Origin: a bacterium
Lineage (GTDB): Bacteria > JAMOTN01
Direction: 5' to 3'
NCBI GenBank assembly: GCA_027062325.1
Contig: JAMOTN010000011.1
Location: 1-12,300, forward strand
DNA length: 12,300 bases
Part shown: positions 3,082 to 10,957 of the stretch, piece by piece
How the letters are laid out: the number at the start of each line of letters is the position of its first letter
Position numbering within the stretch: the first letter of the stretch is position 1
Translations under genes and position numbers: made by a program
The notes under the pieces: model-generated
Database searches by the model: none
What the model was told of the DNA's origin: nothing
What the model saw: the letters and a program-made list of their open reading frames with translations, nothing else

Positions 3082-5172
3082 GTGCAACTTTCTCTAGAAG
3101 CTTTAGTAAGGCGACTAAAAACTCCTGGAGCGACGCTACTGGATAGGAAGGAAGCAGTTCGTGGAATGGGGCTTGTTCAGAATAAGGATGCCATTCCGCA
3201 CTTAATGGAGGCTTTGCAAGAGGAGGAGTTGAAGGTTGAGGCAATTGAAGCGCTTGGAAAATATACTCGTGTTTCTGATGAGGCGTTTGATGCTGTGGTT
3301 TCTGAGTATTACACTGCTAAAGATCGTCAGGTTAAGGCAGCTATAATTCGTGTATTATCGGAATATGTTCCGATGCATAAGACCAAAGTTTTTGAAAAGC
3401 TTATAATAATGGAAGATGATCTTGAATTTAAGAAACAGCTGTACAATTTGAGCTTTAAATACTGTGACGAGAATACTTTACGTAAAATTTCAATGTCGAT
3501 TTTAGATTCGGGCGATACGGAGATGAAGCTGAGCGCTATAAAGTTTCTATCTCGTTTCAATCTCCCTGAGATTATAGAAAAGATGTTTGATTTGACTGCG
3601 AGTGATGATTCAGAAGTAGCAAGTTATGCTTTGAGGATTTTAGAAGATGAATTTGGAGATGAGATACTCAATAAATTTATAGATAGGATAAGAAGTGCGA
3701 ATCCTGATAAAAAAGTAAAGTTGGTGTATGTACTTGGTAATTTGACCACTCCCAAAGTGGTTGCAGTTTTAGCTAAAGTGTTGATAAGTACAAAAAATTT
3801 AAAACTTAGGATGGCAGCGTTGCAAGCTTTGAAAAAAGTTGCAAATAAGAGTATAGAAAAGTTGCTTTATAAAATGTTTGATGTTTTAACAGATGAGGAA
3901 AAAGCTGTAGTTGTTGAGATAGCTTCTGTTTTAAAGAGTAAACTTTTGAAAGAAAAAGTAATCTCTTTTGCAGAGAGCGTTATGGGGGTAGATGTTGATA
4001 TAGCAAAGAGTATTGCAGAAGCAGGTTTTTTTAGCCAAAGTGATGTTAAAAGATATCTTCAAAGTGACAAACCTACGGTGAGATTTGCTGCAATACTTTC
4101 TTTGCCAAGTGCAGAATTTGATACTAGTGAGATAGAAAGTTTCATAGGAGAGCTTTTAGAGAAGGCTAAGTTGACGGCTGTAGAGAGGAAAGAGCTTTAC
4201 TTTATAATAGGGAATTTTGGAATGAGAAATCTTTCGCATCTTTTAAGAAAACCGCTTGAGGCAGGAAGTGATGATGAAAAGATAGCTGCAATGATATCGA
4301 TTTCAAGACTTGGATTGGAAGATATGAGGGAGATGGTTGAAAGAGAACTCAGGGAAAATGAAAATGAGAAAGTTCGTGCTACAGCAGTAAATACTTTGGC
4401 TGCAATTGGAAATGAAAATTCTGCCATGCTTTTGTTGAAAAGTTTGGAGGATGATGATGCCCGAGTTAGAGCAAATGCTGTTGAAGCTCTTGAGGAGCTT
4501 TTTAAAAAGGGTTACCTTTCTGAAAAAGTTCTTGTTGATAATCTCATAAAGATGCTTCACGACTCAAATAATCGTGTTAAGGCAAATGCTGCAATGGTTT
4601 TGTGGCGAGTTGGTGGAGTTGGCATATTGCGCGTTTTGGAAGATATGCTACTTACTTCTGAACACATGTGGCATAGAGCAAGTGCTGCTTTTGCTTTGGG
4701 AGAGACAAAGAGTATTTTAGCAATAGGTATATTGGAGAAGGCAGCTAAAGATCCGGATTCTCCAGTTAGGAGAAATGTTGCTAAGGCGTTGGGAAAGATT
4801 AAAGATCCAGCATGTATTGAAGTGTTGAAGATTTTGAAAGATGATCCTGCTTTGGATGTTTTGGTTGAGGTTGCAAATGCACTTGGAAATATTGGAGGTG
4901 TCCAGGCTTTTAATTTGCTAGTTCACCTTGCTTCCCATCCTGATGATAGGGTTTCTAGTGCAGCTATTGAAAATGCTGTTAAGGTGGCGAGTAAAGATTT
5001 TGTGGCCCCCGAAGTTATAAGGGATTTGTTCAATAGGTTGCCATTACTTGCTTTAAAACTTGTCGGAAAGTTCAAAGATAGAAGTTTTGTTGCCACTGTT
5101 AAAAAGTTTGAAAAGAGTGAGAATGCGCTTTTGGCATCTGTTGCTTCAGAAGTTTTGAAGGAACTAACCTGA
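3082..5172 (+). CDS. Large HEAT-repeat protein, function unknown
   Basis: A 696-aa, all-helical protein made almost wholly of HEAT / PBS-lyase-like repeats. Clear units include AIPHLMEALQEEELKVEAIE near residues 37-56, a DDDARVRANAVEALEELF unit near 456, DPDSPVRRNVAKALGKI near 557 and DPALDVLVEVANALGNIGG near 588. The recurring D-x-x-VR-x-x-A-x-x-ALG pattern is the hallmark. No signal peptide, membrane segment or enzymatic domain is visible, so it is probably a cytoplasmic scaffold for protein-protein contacts. GTG 3082 is preceded by GAGAGGTG at about 7 nt. It sits 4 nt after deoB and 29 nt before a TPR protein, a second helical-repeat scaffold. Partners and role are unknown. Repeats are degenerate in the middle (about residues 100-430) and better preserved toward the C-terminus. 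Confidence 0.85.
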   Translation: MQLSLEALVRRLKTPGATLLDRKEAVRGMGLVQNKDAIPHLMEALQEEELKVEAIEALGKYTRVSDEAFDAVVSEYYTAKDRQVKAAIIRVLSEYVPMHKTKVFEKLIIMEDDLEFKKQLYNLSFKYCDENTLRKISMSILDSGDTEMKLSAIKFLSRFNLPEIIEKMFDLTASDDSEVASYALRILEDEFGDEILNKFIDRIRSANPDKKVKLVYVLGNLTTPKVVAVLAKVLISTKNLKLRMAALQALKKVANKSIEKLLYKMFDVLTDEEKAVVVEIASVLKSKLLKEKVISFAESVMGVDVDIAKSIAEAGFFSQSDVKRYLQSDKPTVRFAAILSLPSAEFDTSEIESFIGELLEKAKLTAVERKELYFIIGNFGMRNLSHLLRKPLEAGSDDEKIAAMISISRLGLEDMREMVERELRENENEKVRATAVNTLAAIGNENSAMLLLKSLEDDDARVRANAVEALEELFKKGYLSEKVLVDNLIKMLHDSNNRVKANAAMVLWRVGGVGILRVLEDMLLTSEHMWHRASAAFALGETKSILAIGILEKAAKDPDSPVRRNVAKALGKIKDPACIEVLKILKDDPALDVLVEVANALGNIGGVQAFNLLVHLASHPDDRVSSAAIENAVKVASKDFVAPEVIRDLFNRLPLLALKLVGKFKDRSFVATVKKFEKSENALLASVASEVLKELT

Positions 5173-5187
5173 TTATTTAGTGTTTAT

Positions 5188-5193
5188 AAGGAG
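5188..5193 (+). promoter_or_regulatory. Ribosome binding site AAGGAG that selects the TPR-gene start
   Basis: AAGGAG lies 8 nt before GTG 5202. The upstream in-frame GTG 5193 overlaps the site itself, so the start is placed at 5202. Confidence 0.6.
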
Positions 5194-5201
5194 TGGGTAA
5201 A

Positions 5202-5732
5202 GTGATTGGTTTTTTGAAAGAGAGGAGTAAAAAGTTTGAATTTTTTGAGTTTATTAATAAGATGGCATGGGAGAAGGCTATTCAGTTGGCTGAGGAGAAT
5301 TCAGAGATTCTGAAAGATGAGGATGTTAGATTTAATTATGCTTGGGCTTTAGTAGAAATAGGGGAATTTTCGCAGGCTAAAAGAATCCTTGAAGAGATGA
5401 AAGAAGAGATGGATTACTCACCAGTTTATTGGATATTGTTAGCAAGGATATATTTAGAGGAAGAAAATGAGGCAGGATTTTGGGAGTCGGTGTCAAACGC
5501 TGAAAGGATTGATCCAACGCATCCTGTTTTGAGGTTTTTAATTGGTAAATATTATGCAAGACACGGCCAAATAGAGAGAGCTGCTGCCGAGTTTGAGTTT
5601 TTCACAAGTGAGTATGCAGGGTATAAAGATGCTTTAGTTTTGGCAGTTCTTGAATCTGTGATGAGAGACTTTGAGTATTTGAGAAATTTTATAGATGAGG
5701 TAAAGAATCGAGATAAAGTGAATGCGGAATAG
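5202..5732 (+). CDS. TPR-repeat protein, function unknown
   Basis: A 176-aa soluble helical protein with about three tetratricopeptide repeats. They run about residues 42-70 (FNYAWALVEIGEFSQAKRIL), 74-105 (YWILLARIYLEEENEAGFWE then ending DP) and 108-139 (FLIGKYYARHGQIERAAAEF), with the alternating small and large hydrophobic spacing of TPRs. No signal peptide or transmembrane segment is seen, so it is probably cytoplasmic. TPRs bind partner proteins; the adjacent HEAT protein is an obvious candidate by position, but that is inference. GTG 5202 was preferred over GTG 5193 on ribosome-site spacing. It is the last gene of the tight upstream operon; the next gene begins 76 nt later. Confidence 0.8.
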   Translation: MIGFLKERSKKFEFFEFINKMAWEKAIQLAEENSEILKDEDVRFNYAWALVEIGEFSQAKRILEEMKEEMDYSPVYWILLARIYLEEENEAGFWESVSNAERIDPTHPVLRFLIGKYYARHGQIERAAAEFEFFTSEYAGYKDALVLAVLESVMRDFEYLRNFIDEVKNRDKVNAE

Positions 5733-5808: not shown

Positions 5809-6888
5809 ATGATGAAAAAAAAGATGCAGAGCTTAGATGTTATAGAGAAAGAAGTTGCTAGTTTTTTCAAAAGGCTAAAACCATATCCGAGATTTTACAC
5901 GGAATCTGATGAAGAGTTAGTGAAGTTGAGTTTAAATCTTTTGAATATTCTAAAATTAGAGTTTGGACTTGCTAATTACTTTGATACATTTATTACTCCT
6001 GATGGATTGCCGTTTGTGTTTGTAACTTCTTTGAAATGGTATATGCCACATCGCGAATACTATCTGCGTTTAACTTCTTCTGGAACAAGCGGTCAAAAGA
6101 CTGAAAACTATTGGAATAGGGAGAGCTTATATAGAATTGACTTTGTTGTGAGAAAAACTGCTGAAGAGTTAGGAATGGTTTCTAGTACTCCAACTGTATA
6201 TTTTATATTTGGATATGATCCCAAAGAGGTTGGAGATTTGGGCACAGCTTGGAGCGATGAAAATTTAAAGCAATTGGCTCCTGAGCTTGAGAGCTTCTAT
6301 TTGATAAGGAATGATAAGCTTTGCTGGGATGAGTTCATATCGGAATTTTACCGAGTTGTAGCTGATGGAGTTCCGGTGAGGCTTATAGGATTTCCTGCGT
6401 TACTTTGGGAGTTTTTAGTGCGTATTGAGTCAGTTAGTTTGAATCCGGAAAGTTTAATTTTAACGGGTGGGGGTTGGAAGAAAAGAGAGAGTGAGGCGGT
6501 CACGGAATTTGAATTTGTGGAGAAATGTAAAGAAAAGCTTGGGGTTGAGAGAGTTAGAATTAGGGATGTTTACGGTTTTACCGAGCATGGGCTTCCGTAC
6601 TTCACGTGTGAATATGGTAATCACCATTTGCACGGATACTCTAAGATTTTTGTAAGAGATCTCCAAACTTTAAAAGTTCTTGATTATGGACAGCCTGGCC
6701 TCATGCACGTTGTATCCCCTTACAACACGACTACTCCAACCCAAAGTGTTTTGAACAATGATCTAGTTGCAGTATATCCAAATTGTCCATGTGGGCGCGG
6801 CGACTACTTCAAAATATTCGGGAGAGCTGGAAAAGTTAAACTGAAAATGTGTGCTCTCAAGGTTGATGAACTTTTGGAGAAGAACTAA
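5809..6888 (+). CDS. LuxE-like acyl-protein synthetase (adenylate-forming)
   Basis: Family role: activates a carboxylic (fatty) acid with ATP to acyl-AMP, then holds the acyl group on a cysteine and passes it to a LuxC reductase. The 359-aa protein has the ATP-binding loop TSSGTSGQKT (89-98), the LuxE signature ILTGGGWKKRE (217-227), VYGFTEHG (254-261) at the acid/adenylate site, and a C-terminal CPCGRGDYFKIFGRAGK (326-342). Near the end, KMCALKVDELL places Cys348 where LuxE proteins carry their acyl-accepting cysteine close to the C-terminus. The full length matches the family (about 360-380 aa). ATG 5809 (or 5812) follows GAGGTG at 5-8 nt. The LuxC fusion protein is the next gene, 106 nt downstream, which supports a joint acid-to-aldehyde reaction. 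No luxA or luxB is present, so light production is not implied. Substrate chain length is unknown. Confidence 0.85.
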   Translation: MMKKKMQSLDVIEKEVASFFKRLKPYPRFYTESDEELVKLSLNLLNILKLEFGLANYFDTFITPDGLPFVFVTSLKWYMPHREYYLRLTSSGTSGQKTENYWNRESLYRIDFVVRKTAEELGMVSSTPTVYFIFGYDPKEVGDLGTAWSDENLKQLAPELESFYLIRNDKLCWDEFISEFYRVVADGVPVRLIGFPALLWEFLVRIESVSLNPESLILTGGGWKKRESEAVTEFEFVEKCKEKLGVERVRIRDVYGFTEHGLPYFTCEYGNHHLHGYSKIFVRDLQTLKVLDYGQPGLMHVVSPYNTTTPTQSVLNNDLVAVYPNCPCGRGDYFKIFGRAGKVKLKMCALKVDELLEKN

Positions 6889-6930: not shown

Positions 6931-7044
6931 ATGCATAAGAGGCAAAAGCTGCAAGGGTATTGGGAAATGTGCGAGAAATACCGGAGGGATAATTATGAAA
7001 ACAAACTTTCACTGGATATGGGGCAGGATCAAGGAACAGTTTGA
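6931..7044 (+). other. Weak candidate small ORF overlapping the start of the LuxC fusion gene
   Basis: ATG 6931 opens a 37-codon frame (starting MHKRQKLQGYWEM) that overlaps the next gene by 50 nt in another frame. GAGAGG lies upstream but only 3 nt away, which is short. It could be a coupling leader, but there is no homology I recognise. Most likely it is non-coding; it is recorded because it fills the gap between the LuxE-like and LuxC genes. Confidence 0.15.
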
Positions 7045-9436
7045 GTGGGACGAGTTGCTTTTAAGGAAAGATTGGATAGTTTCATATCCGCGGGCAAGAT
7101 TGCTTGATGAGATAAAAATAACATTTTCGCTTTTCAAAAGCAAAGTGGAAGGAAACATTGAATTTTGGAAGAAAGTTACTTCTTTTAGTGCTCCTATGAT
7201 AAATGTGGCACTTGATGAATTTGAAAGATGGCTTCAAGCGTTAGAGGAGGATTTGGCAGTTTTGAATTGTGAGTTCGAAAATTATTTATGGAAGCCTGCT
7301 GGATTGCTATTGCATGTTGGTGCGGGAAATGTGTTTATTGGTGCTTTAATGAGTTTAGTTCAGGGTCTGATCGTGGGGAACACCAACATAGTGAAGACGG
7401 CGAGTACGGATCCCCACACTTGCTTTGAATTTATTCGCCTTGCAGCTTCTCAAGGATTTGAATTTTCACGTTATGTGACGGTTTTGAGAGTATCGCGCGA
7501 TCATCCAGTTCTTGAGTATTTAAAAAAGAATGTTGATTGCATCGCGGTATATGGTTCGGAAAATGCCATAAATTGGTGGAAAGATGGAACGTTGGCAAAA
7601 GTCAGGGATTATGGACCAAAATATGGCTTGGCAATAGTTGAGGAGAGTGTGGATTTAAAAGAAGCTGCCAGAAAGATTGCGTTAGATGTTAAGATGTGGG
7701 ATCAGGCCTCGTGCTCAAGTATCCATACCTGCTTTTTTATTGGGAGTAGAAAAAAGCGTGAAGAGTTTGCTAAATTGCTTCTTGAGGCTATGCTTGAGTT
7801 TGAGAAGCGTTTTAATGTTTCTCAACAAGATGATGAATTTGTTGAGGTTTGGAGGGCGAGAAGTGATTGGGTATGGCAGGAATTTGGCAATGCTTATTTT
7901 TATAATGGTGCGTTTCCAACGGTTTTAACAAGTAATGATTGTGTATTTTTCAAGACTCAAATTTTAAATGGAGTAGTGTGTATAGCTGCTTTTAATGAGA
8001 GAAAGTTTAGCGAGATTTTAAAAAGTAATACTCATTACTTGCAGACAGTTGTGCTTGCTGTTTCTGATGAAAATAAAGTGAGGTGGCAGGATAAGATAGC
8101 AGGTTTTGGATTGCGTATAAAAGAAGCTGGAACTTCTTGGATGATAGAAAATGCTTCTCCACACGATGGGGCATTTACATTACATGAGTTTTCAAAGGCG
8201 GTTGAAGTGCCTGAAGTTTTGCTATTTGCTGTGGATAAGTCAGATGATAGATGGCGCAATAAGTGGATGTTGGATAAACTTAACGAGCTTTTGTGGCGGG
8301 TGAAGGAAAATCCGTGGGTCAGGAATAGGTTAAAGAGTGTGAAGCTTCCTCTTCGCAGTTTAGATGAATTTAAAGAAATTGAAGTGGCTTCTCCAGAGTT
8401 GTTTACGAAGGATTACTCAGATTATGTTAGAGAGGTTGCTCCAAAGTTTTCTAAAAACGGTTCGTTTTATCTGTTCTCCTCTGGAGGAACTACCTCACTT
8501 CCCAAAAAATTCTACTGGACACCTGAGGAATTTGAATATTCAACTTACTTTTTTGCCGAGGGTTTTTTGAGAGCGGGTTTTAATCCGGATCGTGATAGAA
8601 TTGTTGCGAATCTCATGATGCCGGGGGGGTTATGGACAGCATTTTTAGCAGTTAATAGAGCTTTAGAAAAGCTTGGATGTCAAATTTTACCGATAGGAAG
8701 TGCTTTACCAAAGGAAGAGGTTGTCAAATTTTTAAAAGTTTACAAGCCTACGACAATATTTGCGACTCCTACAATGACAGAGCAACTTGTTGATGATTTG
8801 CCGCTTTCTGTGAGGAGAGTATTCTTTGCAGGGGAGAAGATGCCGTCCAATCTTTTGGAAAAATTAAGGGCACGCGGGGTATTTGTAGCAAGTTTTGGGT
8901 ATGCAGCTGTTGATGTTGGGCCAATTGGATTTCAGAACGGAGATATTGATGAATTTAGCGTGTTTTCAGGTTACATTTATGCGGAAGTTGCAGAGGATGG
9001 ACAGCTTGTGGTTACAAACTTGAACAGAGTTTTGCAGCCGGTTGTAAGATACAAAGTTGGTGATGTGGTAGAGATACTGGATCCGGGCGAAAAGTGGAGT
9101 AGTTTACGTTTTCGATTGAAGGGAAGAAGTGGTTTTATAAAAATTGCAGGATCCCTTTATCCATTTTACTACTTTGATGAGGCTGTAAGAAAAGCAGGAG
9201 GTGATGATTGGCAGGTAATTGTGGAAAAAAGTGAAGACAAGTATCTTGTAAAAGTTACGAGCGATGCGGATGAAAGTTTGGTTAGAAAAAATTTGTTAGA
9301 GTTGAGTTTTGATTTAAAGACAGATATAAGTTCTGGATTAGTTGATTTGATCGTTGTAAGGAGGAGTAAATCCAGTTTTGTTAAGGATTCTAGAACTGGA
9401 AAGGTGAAAAGAGTTATTTATAAAAATATAGAGTGA
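6995..9436 (+). CDS. Fusion: LuxC-type acyl-CoA/acyl-thioester reductase + PaaK/LuxE-like adenylate-forming domain
   Basis: An 813-aa two-domain protein. Residues 1 to about 410 are a LuxC-type reductase of the aldehyde dehydrogenase fold: WKPAGLLLHVGAGNVFIGAL (99-118) and GNTNIVKTASTDP (128-140) for nucleotide and substrate binding, and KMWDQASCSS with the presumed acyl-accepting nucleophile Cys240. Residues about 430-813 are an adenylate-forming (ANL) domain: ATP loop FSSGGTTSLPKK (494-505), IFATPTMTEQL (588-598), FGYAAVDVG (634-642), VRYKVGDVVEI (684-694), LKGRSGFIKIAGSLYP (708-723), and a tail DSRTGKVKR (798-806) with Lys803 where ANL enzymes carry the catalytic lysine. LuxC alone is about 480 aa, so this is a true fusion with no internal frameshift. 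ATG 6995 has GGAGGG 6 nt upstream. With the LuxE-like neighbour it should reduce activated carboxylic acids to aldehydes with NAD(P)H; the substrate is unknown. Confidence 0.85.
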   Translation: MKTNFHWIWGRIKEQFEWDELLLRKDWIVSYPRARLLDEIKITFSLFKSKVEGNIEFWKKVTSFSAPMINVALDEFERWLQALEEDLAVLNCEFENYLWKPAGLLLHVGAGNVFIGALMSLVQGLIVGNTNIVKTASTDPHTCFEFIRLAASQGFEFSRYVTVLRVSRDHPVLEYLKKNVDCIAVYGSENAINWWKDGTLAKVRDYGPKYGLAIVEESVDLKEAARKIALDVKMWDQASCSSIHTCFFIGSRKKREEFAKLLLEAMLEFEKRFNVSQQDDEFVEVWRARSDWVWQEFGNAYFYNGAFPTVLTSNDCVFFKTQILNGVVCIAAFNERKFSEILKSNTHYLQTVVLAVSDENKVRWQDKIAGFGLRIKEAGTSWMIENASPHDGAFTLHEFSKAVEVPEVLLFAVDKSDDRWRNKWMLDKLNELLWRVKENPWVRNRLKSVKLPLRSLDEFKEIEVASPELFTKDYSDYVREVAPKFSKNGSFYLFSSGGTTSLPKKFYWTPEEFEYSTYFFAEGFLRAGFNPDRDRIVANLMMPGGLWTAFLAVNRALEKLGCQILPIGSALPKEEVVKFLKVYKPTTIFATPTMTEQLVDDLPLSVRRVFFAGEKMPSNLLEKLRARGVFVASFGYAAVDVGPIGFQNGDIDEFSVFSGYIYAEVAEDGQLVVTNLNRVLQPVVRYKVGDVVEILDPGEKWSSLRFRLKGRSGFIKIAGSLYPFYYFDEAVRKAGGDDWQVIVEKSEDKYLVKVTSDADESLVRKNLLELSFDLKTDISSGLVDLIVVRRSKSSFVKDSRTGKVKRVIYKNIE

Positions 9437-9598: not shown

Positions 9599-10957
9599 AT
9601 GAAAAAGGTAGTTGTTATTGGTGGCGGACCTGCTGGTATAAGGTTTTCACGTCAAATTAAGGTTGCTTTGAAAGATAAGGTTGACGTTACCATGTTTATG
9701 CCAGAAAAAAACAGTGCGATATATTGTGCAATTCCCTATGCAATTGAAGGTTTGATTGAGCCTGAGAAAGTGGCAAAGTCTGATAGCTTAGTTACGGAAG
9801 TTGGAGTTAATCTGCATCACAAAAAGGTGACAAGTGTAGACTTTGGAAACAGGAAAGTTTACGATGATGAGGGGAAGGCTTATGAATACGATGAGCTCTT
9901 TATAGCAACAGGTAGTATTAATTTTGTGCCACCTATAGAAGGAGTAGATTTAGCAAATGTTATGACGGTGAAGTTTATAGAAGATATGGAAAAGATTTTG
10001 GAACGCATAGAGAATGGGGCTAAGAAGGCAGTGGTTGTTGGAGCGGGAGCTATTGGTAATGAGCTTGCAACTGCATTTGTAAGAAGAGGACTTGAAACTT
10101 ACCTTGTTGAGATGAAGGACAGAGTTTTGCCGAACATGGTTGATTCTGATTTTGCAGATGATTTGAATGAGGAACATATTAAGAATGGTGTTAAGCTTTT
10201 ATTGGAAGCTAAATTGGAAAGATTAGAGGGGAATAAGTGGGCAGAGAAGGTTTACATAAGGCTTAAAGATGGCTCAGAAAAAGTTATAGAGCTTTCAGAA
10301 GTTGACTTTGTTGTATTTGCAGTTGGAGTAAGGGCAAACGTAGAACTCTTTAAAGATTCTCCACTTATGATAGGAAGAGATGGAATAATTGTTGATTCAA
10401 GGATGAGAACCAATTTACCTGGAGTATGGGCAGCAGGAGATGTGTGCCAATATTACTCTTTAATAGATGGAGCACCTTTGGGAGGAAAACTTGCAACTAA
10501 TGCTGTTCCGATGGCAAAAGTTGCTGCATTTAACTTCCTTGGAGTTCATGAGATAACTTACAAAGGTTTCTTAAATGCAGCAGCTAGCGTTGTTTATGAG
10601 ACACGTGTTGCAGCAGTTGGATTTACTGAAGAAGTTGCTAAGATGAGAGGATATGATCCAGTGAGTGCAGTTGGGGAGGGACACACCAAGTTTCCAATTA
10701 TGCCTGGAGTTCAAAAGGTAAAAGTAAAGCTTATTGCAGATAGGAATACCAAGCGCATAATTGGAGCTCAGTTTAAAGGACCTTATGCGATTGCAGAGTG
10801 GAATAACACTATGAGTGTATTTATACAAAACAAAGGAACAATATATGATGTATTTGACTTTAACTATACGGCTCAGCCACATCAGTCTGATTTTCCCGGA
10901 GTGGGTTGGCTTTCAGATACAGCAGCTCAGCTTATAAAGAAATTGCGCGCTAAGTAG
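9599..10957 (+). CDS. FAD-dependent pyridine nucleotide-disulfide oxidoreductase, CoA-disulfide reductase / NADH oxidase family
   Basis: A cytoplasmic flavoenzyme that transfers electrons from NAD(P)H to a disulfide, persulfide or oxygen. The 452-aa protein has an N-terminal FAD motif VVVIGGGPAGIRFS (4-17), the single redox cysteine Cys43 in SAIYCAIPYAIEG, a second Rossmann motif VVVGAGAIGNELA (about 145-157) for NAD(P)H, the FAD-contacting WAAGDVCQYY (277-286) and a C-terminal dimerisation domain. Cys43 in SxxxCxxPY is the hallmark of the CoA-disulfide reductase / NADH oxidase / NADH peroxidase group, rather than the paired CxxxxC of dihydrolipoamide dehydrogenase. The tail FNYTAQPHQSDFPG departs from the PPYSP-like ending common in CoA-disulfide reductases, so the exact substrate stays open. 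ATG 9599 follows AAGGAGGGA by about 5 nt. It has its own predicted promoter and is followed by an intrinsic terminator, so it looks monocistronic. A role in oxygen or sulfur stress is likely but not shown. Confidence 0.87.
   Translation: MKKVVVIGGGPAGIRFSRQIKVALKDKVDVTMFMPEKNSAIYCAIPYAIEGLIEPEKVAKSDSLVTEVGVNLHHKKVTSVDFGNRKVYDDEGKAYEYDELFIATGSINFVPPIEGVDLANVMTVKFIEDMEKILERIENGAKKAVVVGAGAIGNELATAFVRRGLETYLVEMKDRVLPNMVDSDFADDLNEEHIKNGVKLLLEAKLERLEGNKWAEKVYIRLKDGSEKVIELSEVDFVVFAVGVRANVELFKDSPLMIGRDGIIVDSRMRTNLPGVWAAGDVCQYYSLIDGAPLGGKLATNAVPMAKVAAFNFLGVHEITYKGFLNAAASVVYETRVAAVGFTEEVAKMRGYDPVSAVGEGHTKFPIMPGVQKVKVKLIADRNTKRIIGAQFKGPYAIAEWNNTMSVFIQNKGTIYDVFDFNYTAQPHQSDFPGVGWLSDTAAQLIKKLRAK

Follow-up and report, generated by a model that had tools for sequence, protein, structure and literature searches.

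The stretch of DNA analysed here (the window) spans a complete contig of 12,300 bases, belonging to a genome that holds one LuxC and one LuxE. Positions 6995-9436 form a single open frame of 813 codons, whose ATG is preceded by a Shine-Dalgarno-like GGAGGG (6983..6988), and the encoded protein of 813 amino acids (6995..9436) is identified as a LuxC::ANL fusion by its open frame, by Pfam, by fold matches to both halves, and by full-length relatives in many phyla. This gene and the LuxE gene upstream of it, along with the features of each described below, lie on the forward (+) strand. LuxC and AMP-binding are the only Pfam families scoring above cut-off in the fusion protein, which is divergent (25-28% identity).

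The N-terminal half is a LuxC-type reductase. Its Pfam domain covers residues 99-401 (7289..8197; PF05893, E 2.5e-41, 142.3 bits against a curated cut-off of 21), and residues 1-405 of an AlphaFold model match LuxC of the LuxC-LuxE complex (7xc6_A; Z 36.4, rmsd 3.0, 393 aligned). Within this ALDH fold the reductase nucleophile, Cys240 (codon 7712..7714), lines up with the cysteine of DQQAC in 7xc6 LuxC. Against the equivalog model for bioluminescence LuxC, NF052251, the protein reaches 81.1 bits, the cut-off being 750.

The C-terminal half (residues 407-813, 8213..9433) is a PaaK-type adenylate-forming (ANL) domain, with a PF00501 AMP-binding match at residues 473-629 (37.1 bits against a cut-off of 29.9, E 2.1e-9) and a modelled structure resembling that of PaaK1 (2y27; Z 32.0). 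It displays an A3 (ATP) loop, FSSGGTTSLPKK (residues 494-505, 8474..8509), a YKVGD motif (residues 686-690, 9050..9064), and an A10-type catalytic lysine, Lys803 (codon 9401..9403), thereby combining the AMP-binding profile, A3 loop, YxxGD motif, A10 lysine, and two-domain fold that characterize PaaK-type members of the ANL superfamily. The best family scores obtained with this half are those of CoA ligases, yet they fall far under the respective equivalog cut-offs (36.9 bits against 646.3 for TIGR02155, the phenylacetate-CoA ligase PaaK equivalog), and PaaK-like amide/ester synthetases score in the same range. Missing from the ANL domain of the window are four cysteines present in most relatives, which occur as Q-C..C and C-C-G and are probably metal-binding.

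Alignment of 63 fusions reveals that C240, Q237, H390, G497, G498, E614, D640, D690, R711, and K803 are invariant in all of them (63/63), ruling out degenerate active sites; both halves of the window fusion carry complete sets of predicted catalytic residues. A frameshift artefact or chimera is likewise ruled out, because many phyla hold the same full-length fusion, and LuxC::ANL is a genuine, recurrent joining of a reductase to an adenylate-forming domain. A preliminary description of this DNA had proposed an uninterrupted 813-residue frame, a LuxC-type reductase with Cys240 as nucleophile, and an ANL domain with an ATP loop, YKVGD, and Lys803, each of which is upheld here, and had named a sequencing frameshift and degenerate active sites as grounds on which it might fail, neither of which is seen. 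The AlphaFold model of the fusion as a whole has a mean pLDDT of 81.6 and a pTM of 0.55, the latter too low for the geometry between the active sites of the two domains to be read.

What the preliminary description overlooked is the wide spread of the fusion and the presence of an intact LuxE directly upstream. Separated from the fusion by 106 bp, this gene (5809..6888) encodes a LuxE acyl-protein synthetase of 359 amino acids that aligns with LuxE of 7xc6 (E 4.5e-10); the domain search that assigns PF05893 and PF00501 to the fusion assigns PF04443 to this gene (E 1.1e-28, 100.7 bits against a cut-off of 24.9). The adenylation residues of the window LuxE are invariant in comparison with three orthologues, and its Cys348 (codon 6850..6852) aligns with the C-terminal cysteine of 7xc6_E, equivalent to Cys364 of Photobacterium LuxE, the acyl acceptor of the P. 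phosphoreum protein (PMC8301110). Such a C-terminal acyl cysteine is found in all 69 LuxE rows listed, some of which repeat one locus.

Directly upstream of LuxE, positions 3082-5732 of the window encode a 696-amino acid HEAT-repeat protein and a 179-amino acid TPR protein, and in two other genomes, G089 and G382, LuxE is likewise preceded by a gene resembling a repeat protein. Approximately 160 bp after the fusion lies a gene for a CoA-disulfide reductase/NADH-oxidase-like flavoprotein (9599-10957), which shows no sign of membership in the module.

Distribution and gene company of the fusion

When species genomes were scanned with a four-sequence alignment as query, 65 loci were recovered, 64 of which encode the LuxC::ANL fusion. 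This count, which the preliminary description had called for, places the fusion in at least ten named phyla, with Elusimicrobiota predominant, although the phylum counts do not amount to an unbiased census because the scan patterns were derived from the query alignment. Single cases occur in Campylobacterota, Thermodesulfobacteriota, Pseudomonadota (Marichromatium gracile), Myxococcota, Chloroflexota, and Armatimonadota, as well as in Cyanobacteriota, Bdellovibrionota, Walliibacteriota, Fidelibacterota (L072, in which the frame is broken), and Riflebacteria. Across a spread of 386 genomes, a strong LuxC is present in 31 and the full fusion in 6; a seventh fusion genome (G405) has a version that ends early within its ANL part, close to the edge of a contig.

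Fusions are also found in linear Streptomyces replicons and in two Salmonella enterica plasmids, where public annotation names them merely 'acyl-CoA reductase' or 'AMP-binding protein'. On the IncF-type Salmonella plasmid CP053580.1 (L198:4197-9074), and also on CP054717.1, genes for LuxE, an 802-amino acid LuxC::ANL protein, and a PaaK-like ligase are consecutive; their annotations go no further than acyl-protein synthase, AMP-binding protein, and phenylacetate-CoA ligase. E. coli genomes gave no match to the DNA of the Salmonella plasmid, nor did phages give a full-length match to its fusion protein. A search of open-licence full texts found no description of the LuxC::ANL fusion, although subscription journals may contain earlier ones, and the architecture is apparently uncharacterised.

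The most constant companion of the fusion is LuxE, which accompanies 63 of the 64 fusions and lies within 150 bp in 54 of these 63; on an Armatimonadota contig (L066), LuxE, LuxC, and ANL are joined in one chain of 1314 residues. The sole fusion with neither LuxE nor GNAT nearby is L081, and a search of its draft genome (G408) yielded no LuxE match; this genome is an incomplete bin or else offers a natural test of whether the fusion can act as a one-chain enzyme. A GNAT acyltransferase gene is the third partner, present in 58 of the 64 fusion loci, and a fold search with it mostly retrieved generic GNAT proteins, aligned to the N-terminal half. Among the 386 genomes, strong GNAT matches (E <=1e-60) are confined to six of the seven fusion genomes, all but that of the window, plus G089 and G382, a co-occurrence in which only G212, G089, and G382 are independent, because five of these genomes had contributed sequences to the query.

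In the genome to which the window belongs, the corresponding protein is a HATPase-GNAT of 490 amino acids, unlinked to the fusion and encoded on another contig (C55; L186:7966-9438), that matches the GNAT model weakly (E 4e-18). Its HATPase part is RsbW-like, and the same HATPase-GNAT joining heads the Desulfurella-type operons (L169:11767-13203), in which STAS and RsbW-like genes lie close by. Loci of the Desulfurella type comprise HATPase-GNAT, MFS, a further pair of adenylating-type genes (one of them with no Pfam match), LuxE, and the fusion; those of Streptomyces comprise PaaK, MFS, GNAT, LuxE, and the fusion.

The components also occur unfused. In G089 and G382, LuxC and LuxE are separate and far apart, with GNAT elsewhere, and an ANL relative was located in G089. 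Phylogenetic trees place the LuxC and ANL sequences of fusions apart from most solo ones, a pattern compatible with one fusion event followed by a later split in G089 and G382, a history left unsure by long branches, above all that of the window. The window ANL groups with that of a cyanobacterial locus, L063 (support 91), which also contains a HATPase-GNAT piece. In Streptomyces europaeiscabiei (NZ_CP109155.1, L200:559-9017), unfused LuxE and LuxC stand beside DUF692 (MNIO), MBL-fold, and YcaO genes; this neighbourhood resembles a RiPP cluster, and the LuxE and LuxC may reduce a peptide carboxylate.

Comparison with known acid-activating and acid-reducing systems

The closest parallel is the Lux fatty acid reductase (LuxC-LuxE, 7xc6), which has in common with the window the adjoining LuxC and LuxE homologues, the nucleophile cysteine, the C-terminal LuxE cysteine, and the LuxC fold. 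It differs in that the window LuxC bears an additional PaaK-type ANL domain and scores far under the bioluminescence equivalog cut-offs, by which a role in bioluminescence is ruled out; no luciferase genes are found within the window.

Carboxylic acid reductases (CARs) similarly unite adenylating and reducing domains on one chain, with a carrier between the A domain and a short-chain-type reductase. By Pfam this arrangement is absent from the fusion, which is distinguished from CAR by its missing carrier domain, its reductase of ALDH fold rather than short-chain type, its reversed domain order, and its separate LuxE; no carrier protein gene was seen elsewhere in the window. The preliminary description was therefore correct, as judged from Pfam domains and fold matches, in describing a carrier-free reductase-then-activator order unlike the known CAR architecture. 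PaaK-like ligases (PaaK1, BT_0428, NatL2, AjiA1, ClxA) share their fold and adenylation motifs with the C-terminal half, whereas the window ANL lies under all equivalog cut-offs and is fused to LuxC.

RfbN of Vibrio cholerae, of the 3-deoxy-L-glycero-tetronate pathway, is a LuxE-LuxC fusion working with a separate ligase. A LuxE domain in the protein is noted in PMC4772473; in the window, by contrast, LuxE has a gene of its own, the activator fused to LuxC is PaaK-type and C-terminal, and there are no O-antigen genes. A further chain is seen in genome G196 (L148:1-2439), where one LuxC carries an N-terminal stretch with a LuxE-like or adenylate-forming-like motif, in the order reverse to that of the window; the Pfam match of this N-terminal part is weak, and reverse-order activator-reductase chains may exist. 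The window is thus not alone in joining LuxC to either a LuxE-like domain or an adenylate-forming one (RfbN LuxE domain, PMC4772473; G196 LuxC). Finally, flagellin glycosylation islands of Aeromonas (PMC7874193) and of Enterobacteriaceae (PMC4875605) bring together an AMP-dependent synthetase/ligase, LuxE, and LuxC, in their case listed as individual genes alongside acyl carrier proteins and glycosyltransferases, whereas LuxC and ANL form one chain in the window.

Proposed mechanism and competing explanations

In Lux chemistry, LuxE adenylates the acid and the acyl group passes to the LuxE cysteine and then to the LuxC cysteine, where it is reduced with NADPH (PMC8301110). By analogy, LuxE of the window (5809-6888) would adenylate a carboxylic acid and take the acyl group onto Cys348, from which it would pass to Cys240 of LuxC and be reduced to the aldehyde with NAD(P)H; LuxE is taken as the loader of Cys240 because all residues for this chemistry are present. 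Since the fused ANL domain keeps a catalytic set of its own, it must do something different or act in parallel to LuxE, and it may independently adenylate an acid, be it another building block or the other carboxyl of the product. The acid so activated would become a thioester or amide together with the partner GNAT acyltransferase, whose constancy as a partner is the reason for preferring this role, and the overall product may be a small metabolite, possibly exported. The extra ANLs and the MFS gene in the operons of Desulfurella-type and Streptomyces loci support the same reading. On balance, therefore, we lean toward the fusion serving as the reducing component of an enzyme in which LuxE and LuxC together convert acid to aldehyde, with an extra ANL domain acting with GNAT on a second acid or on the product, and we regard it as a variant of the LuxE-LuxC acid reductase and not as a new kind of enzyme. 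Against this preferred reading, the fusion of ANL to LuxC, and not to GNAT, favours a hand-off of substrate between ANL and LuxC; further points against it are the LuxE-less L081, the unlinked, HATPase-type GNAT of this genome, and the divergence of the window protein, including its missing ANL cysteines.

A hand-off of this sort is central to the one-chain carboxylic acid reductase of the preliminary description, in which ANL adenylates the acid, the acyl group reaches Cys240 directly or by way of CoA to be reduced by LuxC, leaving LuxE to handle another substrate or boost loading. The joined, catalytically complete domains on which that proposal was built stand, with the ANL active site intact in 63/63 fusions and one fusion genome holding no LuxE that could be found. 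What has been weakened is the notion that ANL supplies LuxC instead of LuxE: a LuxE with its acyl cysteine, needless on this account, stands beside 63 of the 64 fusions and shares the chain in L066, and a model of such low pTM cannot place the two active sites relative to one another. Given how rarely LuxE is missing, we do not favour ANL as a simple stand-in for it, and the domain probably does not replace LuxE. A one-chain carboxylic acid reductase is possible, but we hold it to be unlikely, and less likely than a LuxE-loaded LuxC with a separate role for ANL.

It is distinctly doubtful that the ANL domain supplies LuxC as an acyl-CoA ligase, with LuxE scavenging free acid such that both feed one substrate. 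The PaaK-type fold, the best family scores, and the acyl-CoA reductase annotation carried by LuxC proteins would agree with such an arrangement; two activators per substrate would be wasteful, however, the GNAT partner would be left unexplained, and the scores that point to CoA ligases are far below equivalog level and matched by those of amide/ester synthetases. An equally slender likelihood attaches to a combined scheme in which LuxC::ANL reduces acids by itself, ANL loading Cys240 directly, carrier-free, while LuxE loads a different acid; a single complex would then yield a pair of aldehydes, or one aldehyde plus an amide, for a widely spread metabolite made with GNAT. That ANL has a chiefly structural or regulatory part, keeping the LuxE-LuxC complex together while its own catalysis is dispensable, is highly improbable, since its catalytic residues are invariant across very divergent fusions, even if G089 and G382 retain the parts unfused and so indicate that fusion is not required for their retention.

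The conserved module of GNAT, LuxE, and LuxC::ANL, sometimes with an exporter and more ligases, extends across many phyla and includes Streptomyces and Salmonella plasmids, and a search of open-licence full texts found no described product for it. Enzymes that convert free carboxylic acids to aldehydes are wanted for chemistry, and carrier-free ones would be simple to use; the module looks like an uncharacterised pathway from carboxylic acid to aldehyde.
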